The notes beneath the pieces are model-generated. The model was not told where the DNA came from. It saw only the letters and a program-made list of their open reading frames with translations, and ran no database searches. Positions 7,838 to 42,931 of a stretch of DNA of 50,006 nucleotides are shown piece by piece; positions within the stretch are counted from its first letter, which is position 1; each line of letters starts with the position of its first letter. This stretch comes from an uncultured Erysipelotrichaceae bacterium (GTDB lineage: Bacteria > Bacillota_I > Bacilli_A > RFN20 > CAG-826): assembly GCA_900315885.1 (NCBI GenBank), contig ONAT01000008.1, positions 1 to 50,006 of the forward strand, read 5' to 3'. The position numbers and the translations under genes were made by a program.

Positions 7838-8206
7838 ACAAAAAAATGAATTTAGAAGAACAAAAAAGGTTAAAAAAACATAGCCAACAGTAATATTTAA
7901 TACTAATATAATTGTTAGAATAACTAAATATTAATGTTAATCAAAAATCATGCCTAAAGATACTATTATTGATGTATTGTAAAACGCGACTTAAAAACTT
8001 GTTTTTTTATTGACATAATCATAATGGAAAAAACGATAAATTATGATATACTATAAATACGAGATTAGTCGACGGAATGAGGGAATTACACAAAACAATA
8101 GATTATTTAAATCAATATATTAATATAAAAAGATGATTATTTTGATGTCAGTATGCGACATCAAATGATTTTGAATATTACGTTATCTATGAGAGGAAGT
8201 GGTTTT
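7838..8206. other. Intergenic region and promoter zone for the Wadjet operon
   Basis: The region separates the divergent abiE and jet operons and holds no gene. A TTGACA lies at 8010-8015 and TATACT at 8047-8052, but they are 31 bases apart, so no single sigma-A promoter can be claimed. Another Met codon at 8153 is in frame with jetA but has no ribosome binding site. Confidence 0.4.
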
Positions 8207-9580
8207 GTGACGTCTATTTTTGATATAACTAATGAACGATTTTTCATGCCATTAGCTTGTAAGAACAGAAAAATTTATATGGATGCTATCTTGTTTTTAA
8301 ACGAAGTCATAAATGGACTTTTTGAAGCACAAGATAATGATAAGACAAAAATAATTGATAAATTAACAAATCATTTAGATGATTTGGTAGAAGTCAAATT
8401 ATACAAAGACGATTCTGGTGATGAATATGAGGATAAACTAGATAATAGAAGTAAAGCCGCTTTAATAATAAACAAACTTATAGATTATGGATGGCTTTCA
8501 GAAGAGATGATTGGGAATAATAAGACTTTGGATTTCAATGATTATAGTTATGATTTTATAGATCTTATCGAAAAAATTGTAGCTAATAATAAGCCACCAT
8601 ACACAAGTTATGTAAAGCAAATAAAAAATGTTATTAATCAATTTGATTATTCTACTGTTGATGATATTGAAATTGTTGATAACGCATTAAATAATTTTGT
8701 TGTTGCATTAAGAGGATTGAGATCTAAAATTCAGACATTTTATAAACATATAACAAAGACAGTGAATCTAAGTGATTTATTAAAAGAATTCACAGGGGAA
8801 TACAAAGAATATTTCTTTGATTCGGCATATTTAAATCTAAAAATAAGAGATGGTGTTGATTTTGAAATACCAAGAATAGCTGAACAATTAGAAAAGATTT
8901 TACATGATTCATTTAATATGGAGAAACTTATTGATGCCAAAATGAAAGAAAAAGGCTTTGAAATGTACGGGGTGGCCAAAGATTATATTGATAAAGCCAA
9001 AAAAAGGATAATCACTAATATTCGAACTTGTCCATTAATTATAGAAATGATTGATACTAAAAACGAGCGATATCTTGCGCGCACTACAGCTGTAATAACT
9101 CATTTAATTAAGCGCGGTGAGGATATTGAAGGCATTTTAAATAGATTAATAGATGAAGTTAAAAATGACAAAGTTGTTGATGAAAACTTTGCTTATATGT
9201 TTACAATGCATCATTATACTTTTAATTCTTTAAGTAGGCCAAGAAATTACAACCCTAAAGCGAAACCGGATATGCTTCCTGTTGATTCGAGTGTCAGTAA
9301 TGAAGCAAAGAACAAAGCACTAGAAATTTTAAAAGAAGACAGCAAGTACAATGTTAAAAATGTTAATAAGTATGTAAGTAATTTTTTAAATGGCGATAAA
9401 CAAAAGAAAATATCTGAACAAAAAATTAAATCAAAATACGAATTTGTTATGATTATTTCAATCATGATGTATTCGAAATTACCTAAAGCAAATTATGAAA
9501 TTGAATTATTAAGCGAAAGAATCAAACGTAACGGTATTTCTTTTAATGATTTTATCATCAAACAAAAGGAGAATATTTAA
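8207..9580 (+). CDS. jetA: Wadjet anti-plasmid protein JetA (kleisin subunit)
   Basis: This protein of about 457 residues is the first gene of a four-gene Wadjet operon. JetA is the kleisin (MukF-like) that bridges the JetC SMC heads and recruits JetB. The start is placed at GTG 8207: the family characteristically begins with a short tail and then FDITNERFFMPLACKN, and AGAGGAAG at 8192-8199 gives a suitable ribosome binding site. The frame is open from ATG 8153, which would add 18 unsupported residues. The body has a winged-helix N-terminal region, long helices in the middle and a charged C-terminus. It lacks a DUF3375-like appearance and looks closer to the DUF5716-type JetA, so I lean to Wadjet type III, without being able to test it. 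Confidence 0.85.
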   Translation: MTSIFDITNERFFMPLACKNRKIYMDAILFLNEVINGLFEAQDNDKTKIIDKLTNHLDDLVEVKLYKDDSGDEYEDKLDNRSKAALIINKLIDYGWLSEEMIGNNKTLDFNDYSYDFIDLIEKIVANNKPPYTSYVKQIKNVINQFDYSTVDDIEIVDNALNNFVVALRGLRSKIQTFYKHITKTVNLSDLLKEFTGEYKEYFFDSAYLNLKIRDGVDFEIPRIAEQLEKILHDSFNMEKLIDAKMKEKGFEMYGVAKDYIDKAKKRIITNIRTCPLIIEMIDTKNERYLARTTAVITHLIKRGEDIEGILNRLIDEVKNDKVVDENFAYMFTMHHYTFNSLSRPRNYNPKAKPDMLPVDSSVSNEAKNKALEILKEDSKYNVKNVNKYVSNFLNGDKQKKISEQKIKSKYEFVMIISIMMYSKLPKANYEIELLSERIKRNGISFNDFIIKQKENI

Positions 9581-10201
9581 ATGACCAATGAAGAAAGTAA
9601 AAGATTTAATGAGTTATATTGCTTATTAACTGAAAACGAAAAGCAAAAAATGAAAGAAGTCACGATTAAATTGTTAAAAGTTAATTTTTTGTTGAGAAAA
9701 ACTATTAGCAATGATATGTATTCCTTTATAATTAACCACAAAGAATTGCTTGTGTTATTTTTTGATTATATAAATTTTGATTTTATTATATATGAGGATA
9801 AGGAATTGGCTTATATCAAAACTAATGATGATAAAGTAATTAGTGCTATTAACAAAAATGAAACGTTGTGTTTGTTGGTTTTAAGACTATTATATCAAAA
9901 CAAAATAGATGAGGTATCACTTGCTGATGAAATAGAAATAACAGTGAAGGACTTACAAGATAAGCTATTTTCAGTCGGTTTTGATAGTAATTCAAATGAT
10001 AGAGTAAGAAAAGGAACTTTAATAGAAATGCTTAAAGTCTTTAAGCAACATAATATTATTTTTTATAATGGAGATTTAGCTTTAGATGATACTACTATAG
10101 TAATCTATCCATCTATTGAAGTAGCACTTGACTTTAAAAAAATGGATGAAATATTAACAAGATTGGATTTGTTGAGGGGCGGAGATGATAACGATGAGTA
10201 A
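9581..10201 (+). CDS. jetB: Wadjet anti-plasmid protein JetB (MukE-like)
   Basis: A 206-residue protein directly abutting jetA (start one base after the stop), with AGGAG eight bases upstream. JetB is the kite (MukE-like) subunit that binds the JetA kleisin. The sequence shows the expected tandem winged-helix pattern (FLLRKTISNDMYSFI near residue 35; ETLCLLVLRLLYQ near 92; RKGTLIEMLKVFKQHNII near 145). Identification rests mainly on position between the kleisin and the SMC gene and on size. It overlaps the start of jetC, so translation is coupled. Confidence 0.82.
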   Translation: MTNEESKRFNELYCLLTENEKQKMKEVTIKLLKVNFLLRKTISNDMYSFIINHKELLVLFFDYINFDFIIYEDKELAYIKTNDDKVISAINKNETLCLLVLRLLYQNKIDEVSLADEIEITVKDLQDKLFSVGFDSNSNDRVRKGTLIEMLKVFKQHNIIFYNGDLALDDTTIVIYPSIEVALDFKKMDEILTRLDLLRGGDDNDE

Positions 10202-13200
10202 ATTAAGTGATGTCAGATTGAGTAAAGTCGTATTAATTAACTGGATGTATTTTCAGAAGACGACTATTAATATGGATGGTAACACAGCCATAGTTGGTGT
10301 TAATGGCACGGGTAAATCGACAATTATTGATGCTATTCAAATGCTACTTTTAGGAAACAAAGCATCAAAATTTAATGCAAATGCCAATGCAGAAAAAAGG
10401 ACACTAGAATCATATGTCAGGGGTGCAATTAATGTGGCAGGAAAGCCATTTTTACGACCGGGTGATGTAGTAACTTATCTTGCTTTAGAAATAACTTTAA
10501 ATGATGTTAAACATATTTTTGGAGTTAACTTAGACTATAAAGCTAATCTAGGTAAATTAAGCGACCCAAAATATTTTTACATGAAAGGGATTGATTTGTC
10601 CGAGGATTTGTTTATTGATAACAATTATCCTAAAACATATGATGTTCTGTTAAAAGAGTTTAAGAACAGTAATAACTTTACAACTTTTCCTTTATTGGTT
10701 CGTTACCAAGAAAAACTTGGTGAGATCTTAGGATTAAAAAATGATAAATCGTATTTTAAAGCGTTATCTAGATCAGTAGGTATTAAAAATATAACAGACT
10801 GCAATATGTTTATGAATGAATTTGTATTAGACGAGAGTTCAATAAATGTTGAAGAGATAAAGAAAATTACTATTGATATGGACAAAGTATCTAAAATTAT
10901 CGAAAACGAGAAGAAAAAATCCGAAAAGTTAGATGAGATAGTTGAAACTGGCAATAGAATTATAGAATGTGATAAAAGAATTGATTTAGAAGAAGCAAAA
11001 AGTTTATTAGCAAATTTAAAATTCAAACAACAGAAAATCGACAAGTTAAAGAGCGAAAATGAAAAACTAGATGCTTCAATCAAAGATTACAATGAGATAA
11101 TAGAGCAAATAAAAGAGAAAATTGAGGACTTGAAAAAGGAAAAAGCGGTTTTTGAGGGCTGTCTAGAACAAATATCTCCAGATTTGAAAAGCATGCGACT
11201 AGAATTGGATTCCAAAGAAAAAGAAATTGATAAAGCCAAAAAAACTTTTGACATTTTAAAGGAGTGTTGTCAAGAAGAACTTCCTAAGGTGCGTTCGCTT
11301 TTAAATTATGAAAGCGAAAACAAAGAAATTAAAGATTTTTATAAATTTATTAAAGATGGTAAATTCACAACGGCTTTAGTTAAAACAAAATTCTTCTCTT
11401 TTAAGAGAGAAGTAGTCAAATTGGGTTATAGTTATAACAATAAGCTTCATGATATAGAAACAGATTATAAGAATACTTACAGTGACTTGGAGAAACTTAA
11501 TAAAGTGATTGACAAGTTGGCAAATAACCAGAGAGCATACTCTGATGATTTAAATGATTTTCTAAGTTATTTGAAAGCAGGACTGAAAAACAAATTCAAT
11601 AGAGATATTGATGTTAATTATTTTTGTGAATATTTGGACATAACTAATAGCGAATGGCGTAATGCTATTGAAGGCTATTTAGGAACGCAAAAGTTTTATA
11701 TAATTGTTCCGAACGAATGCTATAAAGAAGCGCAAAAACTATATAATCAAAAGAAAGATTTCTTTAAAACTAAAATTATTAATGGTTTGAAATTGCCACT
11801 TTTCGAACCTAAAAAAGGGACATTGGGCGAGTTTATTATATCATCAAATACTACAGCCCTTAATTATGCAAGATATTTACTCAATAGAGTTCACTGTGCA
11901 AGTGATTTAAACGATTTAGATAACTATGACATAGCGGTTACAAAGGATTGTATGTTATATCAAAATTATGCTTTGGGCCGCATCAATCCAAGACACTGTA
12001 CAGAGCAATTTATTGGACTAGAAGGCATTCAGAATCAGTTAGCATTGCAAGAAAAAAGCAAAGCAATACTAAAAGAAAGATTATCTAATTTAAATAATCA
12101 AAAGAAGGAATACAAGACAATTGCGGACATTCTTGAAAGAGAAGTGCAATTTGCAAGTAGAATTATAGAAGATAATTCTTATTTTGAAAGTATAGATAAA
12201 TGTGGAGAATTAATAAAACAAATTAATTATTTAAAAGGACAAATTAGTTTTTTTGAAAGTGACCCTAAATATATTGAAATATCAAGTAAAATCTCTGAAA
12301 CTATAGGTAAAATAGACCAACAAAATGAGGACTTAAAAAACAATACAGATATAATAAATGAACATAAGGTGAGCATTAAATCTCATTTGAAGGAAATTGA
12401 AGAACTCAATAGATTTTGTGATAGTCATTTGATTGAACTAAATAAAAAAAGCGAAGATGTTTTGTCTACAGCTAATGAAGTGTTAGAAAGCGTAAATGTA
12501 ACACAGAATATTATTGATGATATTTCAAAAGAAATAAAACGTTTAGATAAAGATAGAATAAAGCATAATTCTGATTTAGAAAATTATATGAAAAATGCTA
12601 GAGATTCATTTAATATTAACATTGAGCCGAATTTTGAACACTTAAACGAATTCAAAACTGAAAAATATAAAATTGATCAAACTTCATTTAAATACGAGGC
12701 AGAACTTGTTGAACTCAAGCAAAGCATTAGAAAGATATTCTTTAATCAATTTTTAAATAAACTATACAATTCTATTGAATTGGCTAAAAAGACAATTGAT
12801 CATTTGAATCATAGTTTATCATCATTTAGTTTTGGTGAAGATTACTATAAGATAAAAGTTGAGATAACACAAAACCAAGATTATCGAACTATCTACAATT
12901 ATGCAAAAGAGTATAATTCTGATGATGCTAATCGTGGAGTTTTTATGAATTATGAAAAAGAAGGTCAAGATTCTAATAAAGTTATAGATTTGTTAAATCT
13001 ATATATGTTTTCAGATGATGTATTAAATCAAGCGAACATCGTCGATTATAGAAAATACTTATATTTTGATGTCGAAGTACATACTGCAAATGGTATAAAA
13101 AGACTAAATGAAGTTATGAAAACACAATCTGGCGGGGAAGTTCAAGTCCCATTCTATATTTTAACAGGCGTGGCTTTTCAACAAACATTGGATTACAAAC

Positions 13201-13427
13201 GAAATCCAGATGCTTTAGGAATTGTTTTATATGATGAAGCTTTTGACAAAATGGATTCTCAACGCATTCAAGAAATGTTAAATTTCTATAGAACTAAGCT
13301 TAATCTTCAAATTATTTTGGCTTCTCCAGGACGACTTGACTCTGTAGTGGATAACATTCAAACAGTAAATGTGGTTGTTCGTGATGGCGATGTAGCAAGT
13401 GTGAGTGATGTAACCCATGAAATATAA
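10194..13427 (+). CDS. jetC: Wadjet anti-plasmid protein JetC (SMC/MukB-like ATPase)
   Basis: This 1,077-residue SMC ATPase is the DNA-loop-extruding motor of Wadjet, which senses small circular DNA. Counting from ATG 10194, Walker A is GVNGTGKS at residues 35-42. Two long coiled-coil arms surround a hinge-like middle (about 430-600). The signature motif TQSGGEVQVPFY is at 977-988, and the Walker B ends in DE at 1014-1015 (LYDEAFDKM). The ATG at 10194 is preferred over 10185 because GGAG (10181-10184) is then nine bases upstream. It overlaps jetB by eight bases and jetD by eleven. All catalytic motifs are present, so it should be active. Confidence 0.93.
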   Translation: MSKLSDVRLSKVVLINWMYFQKTTINMDGNTAIVGVNGTGKSTIIDAIQMLLLGNKASKFNANANAEKRTLESYVRGAINVAGKPFLRPGDVVTYLALEITLNDVKHIFGVNLDYKANLGKLSDPKYFYMKGIDLSEDLFIDNNYPKTYDVLLKEFKNSNNFTTFPLLVRYQEKLGEILGLKNDKSYFKALSRSVGIKNITDCNMFMNEFVLDESSINVEEIKKITIDMDKVSKIIENEKKKSEKLDEIVETGNRIIECDKRIDLEEAKSLLANLKFKQQKIDKLKSENEKLDASIKDYNEIIEQIKEKIEDLKKEKAVFEGCLEQISPDLKSMRLELDSKEKEIDKAKKTFDILKECCQEELPKVRSLLNYESENKEIKDFYKFIKDGKFTTALVKTKFFSFKREVVKLGYSYNNKLHDIETDYKNTYSDLEKLNKVIDKLANNQRAYSDDLNDFLSYLKAGLKNKFNRDIDVNYFCEYLDITNSEWRNAIEGYLGTQKFYIIVPNECYKEAQKLYNQKKDFFKTKIINGLKLPLFEPKKGTLGEFIISSNTTALNYARYLLNRVHCASDLNDLDNYDIAVTKDCMLYQNYALGRINPRHCTEQFIGLEGIQNQLALQEKSKAILKERLSNLNNQKKEYKTIADILEREVQFASRIIEDNSYFESIDKCGELIKQINYLKGQISFFESDPKYIEISSKISETIGKIDQQNEDLKNNTDIINEHKVSIKSHLKEIEELNRFCDSHLIELNKKSEDVLSTANEVLESVNVTQNIIDDISKEIKRLDKDRIKHNSDLENYMKNARDSFNINIEPNFEHLNEFKTEKYKIDQTSFKYEAELVELKQSIRKIFFNQFLNKLYNSIELAKKTIDHLNHSLSSFSFGEDYYKIKVEITQNQDYRTIYNYAKEYNSDDANRGVFMNYEKEGQDSNKVIDLLNLYMFSDDVLNQANIVDYRKYLYFDVEVHTANGIKRLNEVMKTQSGGEVQVPFYILTGVAFQQTLDYKRNPDALGIVLYDEAFDKMDSQRIQEMLNFYRTKLNLQIILASPGRLDSVVDNIQTVNVVVRDGDVASVSDVTHEI

Positions 13428-14538
13428 TGTAATTCTATTAAATAAATTAGTATCTATATACGAAAAAAGAGATGCTAATTCTTCTAAATTAAATCGACCT
13501 GTAAAAATCATCATTAATAAAAACAAGTTTCCTGAGTACTTTTGTGATGTTGCTGGATATGATGAATCGATTCAAGAACTTAATAATATGCAATATATTA
13601 ATATTCAATACTATCCACATGATACAGTAATCAAATCAATTTCATTAAATATGGAGAAAATTGATGAAATAAAAAATCTATTAGGCGTAAATGGTGTTAA
13701 AGAGCAAAGAGAAAAATTATTAAATGAATTGTCGAAATACAACGATGATATAATTGTTAGATTAAAGCAAGAGATAGAAAATAGAATTTATGCAAACAAA
13801 TCAATAAAACAATATTTAAATGACGATTTCATTGATGCTTTAAAAGCTGTGCATTATTTGGAAAATATGGAGCATGACATTTACGAGAGAAATGCAAGCA
13901 ATCAAATATTTAATGATTCAAAAAAATTAAACAAATTAAAACTTATCATAGAATCGATTTATGATGATGATAATATTTTTGAAAAGAAAGGTATACTTAC
14001 TGTTACGCCATACATTTATTTAAAAGGAGATGGTGTTATAAAAGTTAATAATCAAATAATAAATTTATCTGATTTAAAAACTTCAATAGGATTGCCAATT
14101 GACCAAATGGATTCAATCTCTTTTGAAAGAATAGCAAAAGTAACCACTATTGAAAATCTTACCACATTTTATAATTATACTTCAGATGGATTAATTATTT
14201 ATTTGGGAGGCTTTTCAACACATTCACAAATTAAAGTTTTAAAGAAAATTAAATGTGTTTGTGAAAGATTTTATCATTTTGGCGATATTGATTTTGGCGG
14301 CTTTACAATTTTAAATAATTTAATGGAACAATTAGAAATAAAAATTACAGCTATTAATATGAAGTTGGATACTTTGAAATCAAATATTAAATATGCCCAA
14401 TCGTTTAATGATGACAAGTATATTGATAAATTAAAGACCTTACTAAATAAACCATTGCTATCTCCTTACTATGATGTCATTCAGTATTTAATTGATAATA
14501 AAGTGCGTCTCGAACAAGAGAGCTTCTATAATATTTAA
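13417..14538 (+). CDS. jetD: Wadjet anti-plasmid nuclease JetD (Toprim)
   Basis: A 373-residue protein, the effector of Wadjet: a topoVI-A/Toprim nuclease that cleaves plasmid DNA once JetABC have extruded it. The C-terminal Toprim domain shows IENL with Glu246 as candidate first metal ligand, and GDIDFGGF with Asp290 and Asp292. The N-terminal part (DUF3322-like) is longer and divergent. The start overlaps the jetC end (ATG 13417 against stop 13427) with only a weak Shine-Dalgarno sequence, so it depends on coupled translation. The four overlapping genes make a complete, undamaged system, in contrast to the broken elements to its left. Confidence 0.88.
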   Translation: MKYNVILLNKLVSIYEKRDANSSKLNRPVKIIINKNKFPEYFCDVAGYDESIQELNNMQYINIQYYPHDTVIKSISLNMEKIDEIKNLLGVNGVKEQREKLLNELSKYNDDIIVRLKQEIENRIYANKSIKQYLNDDFIDALKAVHYLENMEHDIYERNASNQIFNDSKKLNKLKLIIESIYDDDNIFEKKGILTVTPYIYLKGDGVIKVNNQIINLSDLKTSIGLPIDQMDSISFERIAKVTTIENLTTFYNYTSDGLIIYLGGFSTHSQIKVLKKIKCVCERFYHFGDIDFGGFTILNNLMEQLEIKITAINMKLDTLKSNIKYAQSFNDDKYIDKLKTLLNKPLLSPYYDVIQYLIDNKVRLEQESFYNI

Positions 14539-37914: not shown

Positions 37915-37997
37915 TGGAATTTGTGGATTTAAAGATTTTACTAGATTTTAGTTTTGCAAAGTATTAACAAATAGGTGAAAATTAATTTGTTTAATGG

Positions 37998-38003
37998 TAT
38001 AAT
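37998..38003 (+). promoter_or_regulatory. Extended -10 promoter of the helicase-DarT module
   Basis: TGG precedes TATAAT (37998-38003), an extended -10 element, and no good -35 box is seen at 17 bases. The start codon is 25 bases further on, behind a GAGGAT site. This makes a weak to moderate constitutive promoter plausible. Confidence 0.55.
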
Positions 38004-38027: not shown

Positions 38028-40340
38028 ATGGAAACAAATAAATTATTTTTAAATAGTAATATATCAGAAAACACAATTAAAAAAAACATGATACTTTTTT
38101 TTGAAAAGCACGTTGGCTTTTTTGTGGATGCAAATAAAATTACTTTTAAGAAAGAAGTAATAGATGGTATTTCAACTTATATAGTTATATTAAAAGATGA
38201 TATAAGAAGAATATCAAAAGCTAATGGTGGGTCTGGTGTTCTTAGGCAAAAACAATGGTCAATTTTTGTATTTAATTTTATAAATCCAACAGAATATATC
38301 AAATACTTTGGAACAAATTCAAGTAGAAAACCAATTGTTGACCCGTATAAATTAAATACATTTGATAATTTTGAATATTCGCCTCAAATAAAGATTTACT
38401 CTGGTAAAAATCCGGACAATCTTTTTAGAAGTGCTTCAATAAACTATTTGCTACATCACTTTATTTATTCGAAATTAAGAAAAAAATATAGATATTTATT
38501 TTTAAATTCATATGTATACTCAGTTATTGATGTATTCGAAGAAGAAAAGAAATTAGCAAATTTTAGTGTTTTTTATTATAATTCTAACCACGTTTTTAGG
38601 CCACTGCCTAATTCTAATAGAGTGATAAACCAAAAAGTTGATATTAATAAGACATCATCTATAGTTAACAATGTTCAAGCAGAATTAGAAATTATCGAAA
38701 AAAATTATACTGATATGTCAGATCTTATAAATGCATATAATGGTGAATTGTCACTTACTCCGATTACATCTAATAATTTTAATAATATTAATTCTGATAT
38801 CCAAAAAAATAAACACTTTATAATAACAGAGGGAACTGCAAGAACTGGGAAAACAATCATCGCAATGAGATTATTGGGCCTATATCCTGAATCGCGCTTT
38901 ATTATAATGAATGAATTATTTTATAATTCTTTAATTAATATTTTTAAAATTGAAGGTGTTGATTTCCCATTTGATAGAATTATTTGCCATACAAATTTTA
39001 ATAAGATGATAGAGTGGACTGCAAACTCTAAATTGTTAATTATTGATGAAGCCCAAAGATTGAGCGAATCTCAAATGGAAAATGTTATAGAGAATAAAGA
39101 CAATATAAATGTATTGCTAGGAGATAATCTACAGGCTATAAATATAAAAAGTGATAGAGGCATAAGTTGCTTTGAAAATCTTTTAACAAACAATAGAATT
39201 GAATATACTAAATATTATTTTGATTATTCAATTGGATTAGCAAGTAATGTTCTATATTCCATTAAATATTTAATTTTTAATGAAGTTCCATTTAATAATC
39301 AAAATATTAACAACTATGACATTAATTTTTATAATGATGTTAACGTATTTGTAAATAAATATAGAAGTGATGAAACATTTAGAAAACATATGGCAACAAT
39401 TTATATGGGGTGTAGTGATTATGACACAACAATAGAATCGTTTGATAGAATGCATAAAAATATTCTGCATCGATATCCATACTTTTTGGATAAGGATATT
39501 AAAGAAAAAGTTATGATAACTACATATGAATTGATTTCAAGAGAACTTGATTCTGTTTATATCTATATTCCAAAAACTGTTACTGCCAATGAAAAAGGAC
39601 TTCATTATTGTGATACTAGATATGATAAATTTTTGCTAAATCAACTTTATGTTTTATTTACTAGGGCAAAAGGTGAGATTAATGTCTACTGTGAGGATAA
39701 ATCAACATTTGATTATTTTAATAGAAGAAATAGTTATATTATAAAAAATGATAGAGTGGCATCTAGTTTACTGCCAGAAGAAAAAGAAAAAAGCGTTGAT
39801 TTAGAGAACAAAATAACTGAACGTGGAATAACAAGACTAATTCACTTTACTCCGAAAGACAATCTTAATTCAATTATGGAAAATGGTATTATGTCTATTG
39901 ATATGATGAAAAAGCAAAATATTACATATGTTTGCAATGATAATATTAGGCTTGATGGCATTTGTGATGGAATATCTTTATCGATACAAAATCCCAACAA
40001 CTTTGTGTTGAATAGTTTTAAGAAAAACTATAAAGATAGAAAATATGTTTGTTTAATTTTAAATCCGGCTTTATTATATGAAATTACAGATGATACAGGT
40101 AGCAGACTTGCCCCGAGATTATATTGTAATTATAATGCGGCTGCACAATGCACAAATCGTTCGGAAAATGATTTTGATATAATGTTTCAAAACTCGTTTA
40201 TTGCTGGACCATGGTATGATAGCAGAATTTATAGAAGAAACGAAACTTTTGATGATTCAGAAACCACTGCAGTACAGGCTGAAATTCTCTTTAGGGGAAC
40301 GATTGATCCTAAATATATCTTGGAGATTAAGGAGGTATAA
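38028..40340 (+). CDS. DUF2075-type helicase/NTPase fused to a DarT-like DNA ADP-ribosyltransferase
   Basis: A 770-residue two-domain protein. Residues 265-560 are a DUF2075-type superfamily 1 NTPase: Walker A GTARTGKT at 269-276, Walker B IIDEAQ at 338-343, motif III GDNLQ at 365-369 and LNQLYVLFTRAKGE near 545. Residues 595-770 resemble DarT (DUF4433): IHFTPKDNL with His606, IRLDG with Arg641, and AEILFRG with the candidate catalytic Glu752. DarT enzymes transfer ADP-ribose from NAD to DNA bases. The N-terminal 260 residues are unassigned. The downstream NADAR protein argues for the guanine-specific DarT1 branch. The fused NTPase may load or expose the DNA. Residue assignments are by eye. 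Confidence 0.72.
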   Translation: METNKLFLNSNISENTIKKNMILFFEKHVGFFVDANKITFKKEVIDGISTYIVILKDDIRRISKANGGSGVLRQKQWSIFVFNFINPTEYIKYFGTNSSRKPIVDPYKLNTFDNFEYSPQIKIYSGKNPDNLFRSASINYLLHHFIYSKLRKKYRYLFLNSYVYSVIDVFEEEKKLANFSVFYYNSNHVFRPLPNSNRVINQKVDINKTSSIVNNVQAELEIIEKNYTDMSDLINAYNGELSLTPITSNNFNNINSDIQKNKHFIITEGTARTGKTIIAMRLLGLYPESRFIIMNELFYNSLINIFKIEGVDFPFDRIICHTNFNKMIEWTANSKLLIIDEAQRLSESQMENVIENKDNINVLLGDNLQAINIKSDRGISCFENLLTNNRIEYTKYYFDYSIGLASNVLYSIKYLIFNEVPFNNQNINNYDINFYNDVNVFVNKYRSDETFRKHMATIYMGCSDYDTTIESFDRMHKNILHRYPYFLDKDIKEKVMITTYELISRELDSVYIYIPKTVTANEKGLHYCDTRYDKFLLNQLYVLFTRAKGEINVYCEDKSTFDYFNRRNSYIIKNDRVASSLLPEEKEKSVDLENKITERGITRLIHFTPKDNLNSIMENGIMSIDMMKKQNITYVCNDNIRLDGICDGISLSIQNPNNFVLNSFKKNYKDRKYVCLILNPALLYEITDDTGSRLAPRLYCNYNAAAQCTNRSENDFDIMFQNSFIAGPWYDSRIYRRNETFDDSETTAVQAEILFRGTIDPKYILEIKEV

Positions 40341-40342
40341 TT

Positions 40343-41026
40343 ATGGCGAAAAGAATGGCATTTATTGTAACAAAAAATGGAATAGAGGAACGATTATTTG
40401 ATTTTAAATATTATTCCGGATTTGCTTTATCTCAAAAGCAAAAAAGTATTTTATCGTTTCACGAAGAAATAAACAAATGTTATAAGGAACAAGTGTTAGA
40501 AATTTCAAGCAAATCACCTGATGCACTTGGAAAAAAATTAAGTGCGTTTAATTTAATGGTGAAATATAAAAATCGTTTAATATCGGTGGAAAATATTTTT
40601 CAAGCATCTAAAGCTTTTGAAAATGGTGGTCCTTATGAGGATTTACTTTTTGTTAAGCCAATTGAAGCAAAAAAAGATGAAAGGCTAAAGAAGAGTGGTG
40701 CTTTAATTGCTTTTAGATTTAATGGCAAAAACTATCCGATTAAGCCAAAAACGTTATTTTATGATTGGATTTATTGTAGAGCGTTGAGCCATTATTCAAA
40801 TTATATTGAAGAATTGATAAAATATTCAATCTTTACAGATATTGAATTTAACAATGATAAATCATATAACTGTCAAGCAAGATCAGTGGCAATCTATGTA
40901 TACTTAGAAAAATGTGGCCTTACAAATGAAGCTTTATCTAGCATAGATAAATTCCTTAAATATTCTTACGAAGGATATAAATCGTTAATAGAAGAAAACT
41001 CAATTTTTGATTATTATTTTGATTAA
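40343..41026 (+). CDS. NADAR-family antitoxin-like protein (DarT1-associated)
   Basis: A 227-residue protein of the NADAR (YbiA-like) fold in its DarT1-linked form. SVENIFQASKAF at 81-92 matches the conserved sENxxQxxK region, with YEDLL, KKDERLKKSG and FTDIEFN following. NADAR proteins remove ADP-ribose from guanine and so reverse DarT1. It starts two bases after the toxin gene with a perfect AAGGAGG (40329-40335), much stronger than the GAGGAT in front of the toxin, as expected for an antitoxin made in excess. The toxin-first order is notable. Its terminator is at 41052. Confidence 0.75.
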   Translation: MAKRMAFIVTKNGIEERLFDFKYYSGFALSQKQKSILSFHEEINKCYKEQVLEISSKSPDALGKKLSAFNLMVKYKNRLISVENIFQASKAFENGGPYEDLLFVKPIEAKKDERLKKSGALIAFRFNGKNYPIKPKTLFYDWIYCRALSHYSNYIEELIKYSIFTDIEFNNDKSYNCQARSVAIYVYLEKCGLTNEALSSIDKFLKYSYEGYKSLIEENSIFDYYFD

Positions 41027-42089: not shown

Positions 42090-42658
42090 ATGATAAAAAC
42101 TATTGAAGTCAAAAAAACTAGTTAAAGACTACGGAAGTGGACGTGGTGTATTTGATGTCTCCTTCTTTGTAAAAAAAGGAGAAGTATATGGATTCTTAGG
42201 TCCTAATGGCGCGGGTAAGAGTACAACCATTCGTCATTTAATGGGATTTTCTAAACCTGATAAAGGTGAAACTCTCATTAACGGAAAAGAGACATTTAAT
42301 CACTATAACGAAGTCCTAAAAGATGTCGGTTATATTCTAGGAGAAATTGCTTTTCCTGCAGGACTTACTGGCGAAGAGTTAATCGATATGTTACTAACTA
42401 TGAAAAAAGCTAAAGAACAAATCGCTTACCAGAACTGTTAGAGTTTGGCTTGTTTGACCCACAAGTAATTCCAAACGATGTACGTTTAGATTCGTTAAAT
42501 ATTTCAATTATGTTTCTATTATTTCCTTCTTTGATGTCGTGTCTATCTTAAATGGAACAACTGCATTTATCTGGAAGTTATTAATTCTTGCCGCGATTGG
42601 TATAACTGGATATATTGTTGGTTCTATTATATTTAAGAAAAAAGATTTAACTCTATAA
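42090..42658 (+). pseudogene. Decayed ABC-2 efflux transporter (ATPase N-part plus permease C-tail)
   Basis: The ATG at 42090 with AGGAGG upstream gives MIKTIEVKK and then a frameshift at a seven-A run (six would keep the frame). The shifted frame carries a complete ATPase N-terminal part (FLGPNGAGKSTT), ending at a TAG near 42440. A large deletion follows. The last 165 bases, in yet another frame, encode a hydrophobic permease C-terminus (FFDVVSILNGTTAFIW to KKKDLTL). The operon has therefore lost the ATPase signature and most of the permease. Divergence from the intact TetR gene shows where the regulated efflux pump used to be. Confidence 0.85.
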
Positions 42659-42677
42659 AAGTTATAATTATAAAAAT

Positions 42678-42712
42678 AAGCACATTAGAAATTCCTCTAG
42701 TGTGCTTTTTAA
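42678..42712 (+). terminator. Terminator after the decayed efflux operon
   Basis: AAGCACATTAGA (42678-42689) pairs with TCTAGTGTGCTT (42696-42707) at almost every position, with G-T pairs, followed by TTT and AT-rich sequence. It remains intact although the genes before it are dead. Confidence 0.8.
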
Positions 42713-42720
42713 TTAAAAGT

Positions 42721-42785
42721 AAGTAGATAAACACTCGTAATTTATAATGGTGCCTGCGGTTACAAGTGTTCATCTACTTTTTTAT
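42721..42785. ncRNA. Large isolated hairpin, possible small RNA or second terminator
   Basis: Two 20-base arms (42721-42740 and 42760-42779) pair at 18 positions and enclose a 19-base loop that contains GGTGCCTGCGG, an unusually GC-rich island in this AT-rich DNA. The right arm runs into a T-run. It could be a terminator, the tail of a small RNA, or a remnant of a mobile hairpin. No coding function. Confidence 0.4.
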
Positions 42786-42931
42786 TATAATACATTTGTT
42801 TTGTAATTTTTCAAGAGACATTATGTAAATTGCGTAGTTTATATGTAAAAAACAATTGTTTTTTATGTGACTAGTTTTATACTTTTTGTAGAGATAATGG
42901 AGGATAAGGAGCAAATCCTTATATATTAAAA
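42786..42931. other. Leader of the 206-residue protein
   Basis: No gene is seen. An AAGGAG (42906-42911) lies 20 bases before the start codon 42932 and sits inside the hairpin AAGGA-GCAAA-TCCTT, so the only Shine-Dalgarno candidate is both far away and sequestered. Confidence 0.35.

Follow-up and report, generated by a model that had tools for sequence, protein, structure and literature searches.

A predicted DarTG1-type toxin-antitoxin module whose DarT1 toxin is joined to an Nhi/AbiO-like SF1 helicase

The protein described here consists of an N-terminal domain, a superfamily 1 (SF1) helicase and a C-terminal DarT1-type ADP-ribosyltransferase in a single chain of 770 amino acid residues, and its gene is followed directly by that of a NADAR antitoxin. 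Both genes are located in a 50-kb window (50,006 nucleotides), which is one whole contig of an uncultured Erysipelotrichaceae genome (1.32 Mb in 39 contigs, 97% complete, about 30% GC). We judge it slightly more probable than an even chance that the locus serves defence as a toxin-antitoxin module of the DarTG1 type, in which DarT1 would be the C-terminal effector of a helicase receptor resembling those of Nhi and AbiO. The positions of the features are collected in Table 1.

Table 1. Features of the helicase-DarT1/NADAR locus and of the Wadjet-type operon in the same window (numbering of the whole window)
Feature	Position	Strand	Evidence
Wadjet-type operon, complete: JetA, DUF4194/MksE-like, SMC-like ATPase, JetD	8153-14538	+	Pfam
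Candidate toxin promoter GTGAAA-17-TATAAT, TG before -10	37975-38003	+	consensus scan, weak
Helicase-DarT1 fusion toxin, 770 aa	38028-40340	+	single open ORF; matches in Pfam, PADLOC and the PDB
N-terminal domain, residues about 1-240	38028-38747	+	alignments; common to TIR-tailed relatives
SF1 helicase core, residues about 245-572	38760-39743	+	Pfam SLFN-g3_helicase; Foldseek; motifs
DarT1-type ADP-ribosyltransferase domain, residues 591-770	39798-40337	+	phmmer to 8baq; residue mapping
AAGGAGG, strong Shine-Dalgarno-like, for the NADAR gene	40330-40336	+	sequence; within the 3' end of the toxin gene
NADAR-DarT1 antitoxin, 227 aa	40343-41026	+	Pfam PF22397, E 1.2e-80; 8bat, E 1.1e-51

The toxin ORF contains no internal stop, so that the joining of helicase and toxin described in the first-pass annotation is found in one uninterrupted frame, and the NADAR gene begins after a gap of two bases, as had also been noted. 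The total number of promoter-like sites in the scan is at the level expected by chance in such an AT-rich region, and the toxin promoter candidate is therefore weak. A search of the locus found no RNA family, and one across the window found no tRNA. The immediate upstream neighbours are metabolic genes of a sugar operon and not defence genes. The window also contains the complete Wadjet-type operon, with Pfam E-values of 3e-56 for JetA, 8e-21 for the DUF4194/MksE-like protein, 2e-19 for the SMC-like ATPase and 3e-20 for JetD. In a separate observation, an ABC-transporter ATPase gene (42103-42900, + strand), which adjoins a TetR-like regulator, is cut by stops to 112 aa and looks to be decaying.

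The C-terminal part of the toxin is matched by the DarT model of Pfam (residues 606-767, E 2.4e-7), with a score exceeding the curated cut-off, and PADLOC also gives a weak DarT match. A phmmer search of the toxin against the PDB produced one match, DarT1 of E. coli C7 (PDB code 8baq, E 3.3e-14, residues 591-765). The DarT-like assignment made at first pass is borne out by these results. The residues H17, F18 and T19 of the E. coli protein correspond to H606, F607 and T608 of the toxin, N48 and D49 to N637 and D638, R52 and D54 to R641 and D643, N104 to N703 and E152 to E752. His606, Arg641 and Glu752, which had been named as catalytic, consequently align with the E. coli residues H17, R52 and E152. 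E752 lies opposite an alanine in the alignment, since the crystal structure is that of the E152A form of DarT1. M71 of the E. coli protein is replaced by V660. The roles of the DarT1 residues are taken from the published work (PMC11543638), in which N104 holds the guanine, while the thymine-specific DarT2 has a histidine in this position. Since the guanine-holding asparagine is present in the toxin as N703, its specificity for guanine is predicted.

The antitoxin exceeds the curated cut-off of the NADAR-DarT1 model, and in the PDB it matches the NADAR protein of Geobacter lovleyi. The residues E88, K95, K115 and D171 of E. coli C7 NADAR, which are catalytic or, as K115, conserved, correspond to E83, K90, K110 and D166 of the antitoxin; this mapping was made from the spacing of the motifs and the alignment with the G. 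lovleyi protein. Because nearly all key residues of DarT1 and those of NADAR are kept, the active sites of the toxin and the antitoxin look intact. DarT1 is known to modify guanine in single-stranded DNA, and NADAR reverses this modification (PMC11543638).

The middle part of the toxin had been annotated as a DUF2075-type NTPase with a Walker A motif and a DEAQ box. Both motifs are present, and residues 263-466 match the Pfam family SLFN-g3_helicase (formerly DUF2075) with E 9e-13, exceeding the curated cut-off. The helicase motifs comprise Walker A (GTARTGKT, residues 269-276), DEAQ (340-343), GDxxQ (365-369), SRE (504-506) and TR (545-546), and all five are invariant across the first four members of the module that were aligned. 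The PADLOC model of Nhi matches residues 253-553 from model position 189 onward (E 9.8e-10). The AbiO model matches residues 182-553 with its positions 116-451 of 468 (E 2.8e-7), and its N-terminus is unmatched. An AlphaFold2 model of the whole toxin, built with four sequences, has a good helicase core and low confidence elsewhere. The Foldseek search with this model, which for this reason speaks for the helicase core only and not for the N-terminal domain or the DarT part, returned the SF1 helicases Dda, RecD, SARS-CoV-2 nsp13, SLFN11 (E 2e-7) and Upf1. The predicted fold of the core resembles that of the SF1B helicases Dda and RecD.

The N-terminal domain (residues 1-240) has no Pfam match, and a five-row profile of it found no match in the PDB. 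No conserved nuclease motif was recognised in the alignment when it was judged by eye. Most of its invariant residues have aromatic or small side chains, and no nuclease-like set of acidic residues and lysine is visible in the alignment.

It is important to compare the toxin with proteins that share its first two domains. The N-terminal domain and the helicase were found in five other Bacilli-type genomes (L003/L019, L004/L018, L005/L067, L055 and L056) with an identity of 27-33%, and every one of these proteins carries a TIR-like domain, and none a DarT domain, at the C-terminus. Three of them, from the same family and 758, 759 and 760 aa in length, align to toxin residues from about 18 to 573 and not to the DarT part. 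The wider sample of the class adds a full-length relative of 807 aa (genome G332) and a fragment (G524), both from other families. Two of the genomes bearing the module are metagenome-assembled 'Bacilli' genomes from the rumen (yak omasum and goat reticulum), and the host of the present locus is therefore probably also a gut bacterium of the Bacilli type. The C-terminal domain of all five relatives has about 165 residues, begins with YDVFISY and contains an invariant glutamate. The Pfam model TIR_2 matches it weakly (E 0.12-0.13). In an hhalign comparison with 21 TIR domains from the same family of bacteria, the tail reaches a probability of 95.5% and an E-value of 1.4e-8, and the best E-value among 40 column-shuffled controls is 0.04. 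An AlphaFold model of the tail (mean pLDDT 67) gives weak matches, several of them to flavodoxin-like folds, and no TIR structure is among the best matches listed. Sequence comparison thus gives good support to the identity of the tail as a TIR domain, which the structural model leaves unsettled; such a domain probably depletes NAD+.

The junction between helicase and effector is identical in the DarT1 form and the TIR-like forms. With the same junction and exchanged tails, the module of N-terminal domain and helicase carries either a TIR-like domain or DarT1. The coincidence of the junctions also makes a chance read-through or an assembly chimera unlikely. The fusion is known as one example only, from a single genome in 39 contigs, and it could be suspected that it arose by an error of assembly or binning or is a recent, non-functional fusion. 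We consider this very improbable: the frame is uninterrupted, the DNA composition of the locus matches the remainder of the genome, the active-site residues are kept, and the NADAR gene follows directly with a strong ribosome site of its own.

Most of the TIR-tailed relatives are adjoined by defence genes. These are a ThsB-like TIR at L055/L068, AbiLi/AbiLii-like genes for an AAA protein and its partner at L067, FRG (PDC-S15) and Abi_2 at L004/L018, and a RES protein at L003/L019. No NADAR gene was seen next to the TIR-tailed forms. In genome G332 a ThsB-type TIR gene (L055:878-1387) and a gene for a small membrane protein (L055:440-868) are located directly upstream of the helicase-TIR gene, and the two TIR proteins possibly belong to one operon. 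The distribution of the module is patchy: it occurs at full strength in 4 of the 279 genomes of the order and in none of three congeners. This fits a defence gene that moves horizontally. The anti-phage role proposed at first pass thus gains support from the Nhi and AbiO matches, from the defence-rich neighbourhoods of the relatives and from the Wadjet operon in the window.

The order of events that we propose begins with the N-terminal domain and helicase, which would engage an intermediate typical of phage replication, most likely single-stranded DNA with phage SSB, or a fork. Binding or hydrolysis of ATP might then shift the conformation or assembly of the protein and free or stimulate the C-terminal NAD+-consuming domain. 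DarT1, as its conserved residues predict, would transfer ADP-ribose from NAD+ to guanine in nearby single-stranded DNA and block replication. The co-translated NADAR is predicted to strip ADP-ribose from the guanine of host DNA, so that basal leakage would be tolerated. In this sequence of steps the helicase module would sense the single-stranded DNA of phage replication and gate DarT1. Since a TIR NADase does not have to be brought to DNA, the exchange of effectors argues for sensing and switching as the task of the module in both forms.

The TIR forms, which have no adjacent NADAR, fit gated effectors. The DarT1 form probably keeps its NADAR because even a low basal activity already damages host DNA. 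That NADAR is still needed, or kept, suggests that the gating may be incomplete.

The alternative put forward at first pass was that the helicase is a targeting motor, which translocates on phage DNA or unwinds it and steadily presents single-stranded DNA to the attached DarT1. The substrate of DarT1 is indeed single-stranded DNA (PMC11543638), the SF1 motifs are complete and the fold resembles that of Dda and RecD. However, the same module has TIR-like domains in five relatives, a TIR NADase would act on free NAD+ and gain nothing from transport along DNA, and the E. coli C7 DarT1 needs no helicase for its activity. The proposal of a motor that brings the toxin onto forked DNA is weakened by this; sensing and gating account better for the two forms together, and we regard the targeting motor as unlikely. 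Returning to the sensor reading, delivery may be an additional benefit in the DarT1 form, where a sensor bound to phage single-stranded DNA would place DarT1 beside its substrate.

DarT1 proteins carry many different N-terminal extensions. Among other DarT1-NADAR toxins the extension consists of Sel1-like repeats in L006, and uncharacterised extensions were found in Acetoanaerobium, Rhizobium and Deinococcus, with toxins of up to 846 aa. A glycine-rich, membrane-like N-terminal half is joined to DarT1 in three proteins (L007:1411-2655, L015:1483-2595 and L008:4-1155). In L007 and L015 the NADAR gene is directly downstream; the L007 protein matches LeoBC in PADLOC (E 1e-9) and the L008 protein does so weakly. 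If this membrane-attached DarT1 is real, it would be another undescribed form. Two further loci are recorded here as separate observations. A plasmid of Deinococcus sp. QL22 encodes the 846-aa DarT1 (L052:2105-5325), whose N-terminal domains are long and apparently repeated; the toxin gene is flanked by those for an N-6 DNA methylase and a NADAR protein. In genome G449 a DarT protein (L016:427-2854) is located between a DUF4435 protein and a protein of 243 aa that matches neither NADAR nor the macro domain; this DarT possibly has a different antitoxin.

The abundance of extensions indicates that an extension as such is common, and that the helicase is the special part of the present toxin. The same abundance could be taken to mean that the locus is an ordinary DarT1-NADAR pair for growth control or addiction, in which the N-terminal part is incidental and might, for example, keep the protein soluble or localise it. 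By itself DarT1 is toxic, and NADAR rescues from this toxicity (PMC11543638). Against this, the helicase retains its motifs and is shared with an independent effector, and in relatives the module has many defence genes around it. We therefore hold the ordinary pair to be more doubtful still than the targeting motor, and prefer the gated DarT1 effector.

The survey for the same fusion, which had been suggested at first pass, gave no second helicase-DarT1 protein, and instead the recurrence of the N-terminal domain and helicase with the TIR-like tail. No second fusion was present in 224 genomes of the family or in the phage and plasmid collections, and none was found with the DarT model in the sampled 395 genomes of the class and 344 of the phylum. 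The helicase-DarT1 form is known from one genome. Scans of viral contigs, with single proteins and with profiles, gave no relative; the genome scan with single proteins gave none, and that with profiles only two relatives already known. Phage records contain no match to the toxin or antitoxin, and plasmid records match the DarT part only; accordingly, no sequenced phage or plasmid was seen to carry the fusion. In the open-access papers that were searched, no description was found of a helicase-fused DarT, of a DUF2075-ART fusion or of a fusion of TIR with an SF1 helicase.

Several candidates were rejected. A match on a Rhizobium plasmid that seemed to reach the helicase (query residues 497-685) proved to be to a DarT1 whose N-terminal half is unrelated. 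The proteins of about 620 aa in L025-L035 are helicases of a different DUF2075-like family, judged by their weak partial matches. The match of G160/L033 to the N-terminal domain is due to chance, and the surrounding coding sequence consists of ABC transporter genes. An empty site could not be identified in the same genus, where even the sugar operon beside the locus is missing or has diverged too far.

Taken more broadly, the TIR-tailed and DarT1 forms may represent a hitherto undescribed group of phage receptors, each consisting of one protein, in which a unique N-terminal domain and a Schlafen-3/Nhi-type helicase form the sensor and the C-terminal effector is an exchangeable NAD+-consuming domain; for this wider proposal we consider the balance to be even. 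If it is true, a DNA ADP-ribosyltransferase would be gated by an ATP-dependent sensor of nucleic acid. The occurrence of one helicase with DarT1 here and with a TIR-like domain in other genomes would offer a direct test of how DarT is switched on during infection, and the two effectors of the sensor could be swapped. The family would connect toxin-antitoxin modules to receptor-effector immunity of the Nhi and TIR kind, and would show that a single sensor can be coupled interchangeably to two outputs, a reversible lesion in DNA and the depletion of NAD+.

Compared with known systems, the locus is like DarTG1 of E. coli C7 and Geobacter lovleyi in the DarT1 catalytic set, including the guanine-coordinating asparagine, in the NADAR-DarT1 antitoxin with its E, K, K and D residues, and in the order of the toxin and antitoxin genes. 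DarT1 of E. coli C7 is a single domain of about 200 aa (208 in the PDB chain), whereas the present toxin has about 590 more residues at the N-terminus, with the SF1 helicase. A stand-alone short toxin is typical of DarTG1, perhaps not obligatory, and the 770-aa toxin departs from it. The TIR-tailed helicases have the same N-terminal domain, helicase, junction and NAD+-using type of effector, and differ from the locus in that a TIR-like domain takes the place of DarT1 and no NADAR was seen beside them. Phage core replication proteins activate DarTG, and Nhi is activated by phage SSB (PMC10732053).

The SF1 helicase with its C-terminal motifs is like Nhi and AbiO and matches both PADLOC models. 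In contrast to Nhi, the toxin has no N-terminal nuclease domain by Pfam, PDB and the motif check by eye, and its C-terminal effector is DarT1; an Nhi-like relative (L011) has a nuclease-like stretch before the helicase and nothing after it. In human SLFN11 the helicase fold is alike, and the helicase domain is the only comparable part. The N-terminus of SLFN11 is described as a tRNA nuclease and not an ADP-ribosyltransferase. With respect to the Schlafen family as a whole, the group 3 helicase domain matches, while the N-terminal core (AlbA/nuclease) has no match. As far as its domains can be assigned from sequence, the locus is neither an Nhi system, since a nuclease domain is lacking, nor a Schlafen protein, since only the helicase matches; it is best described as a putative DarTG1 with an added receptor.
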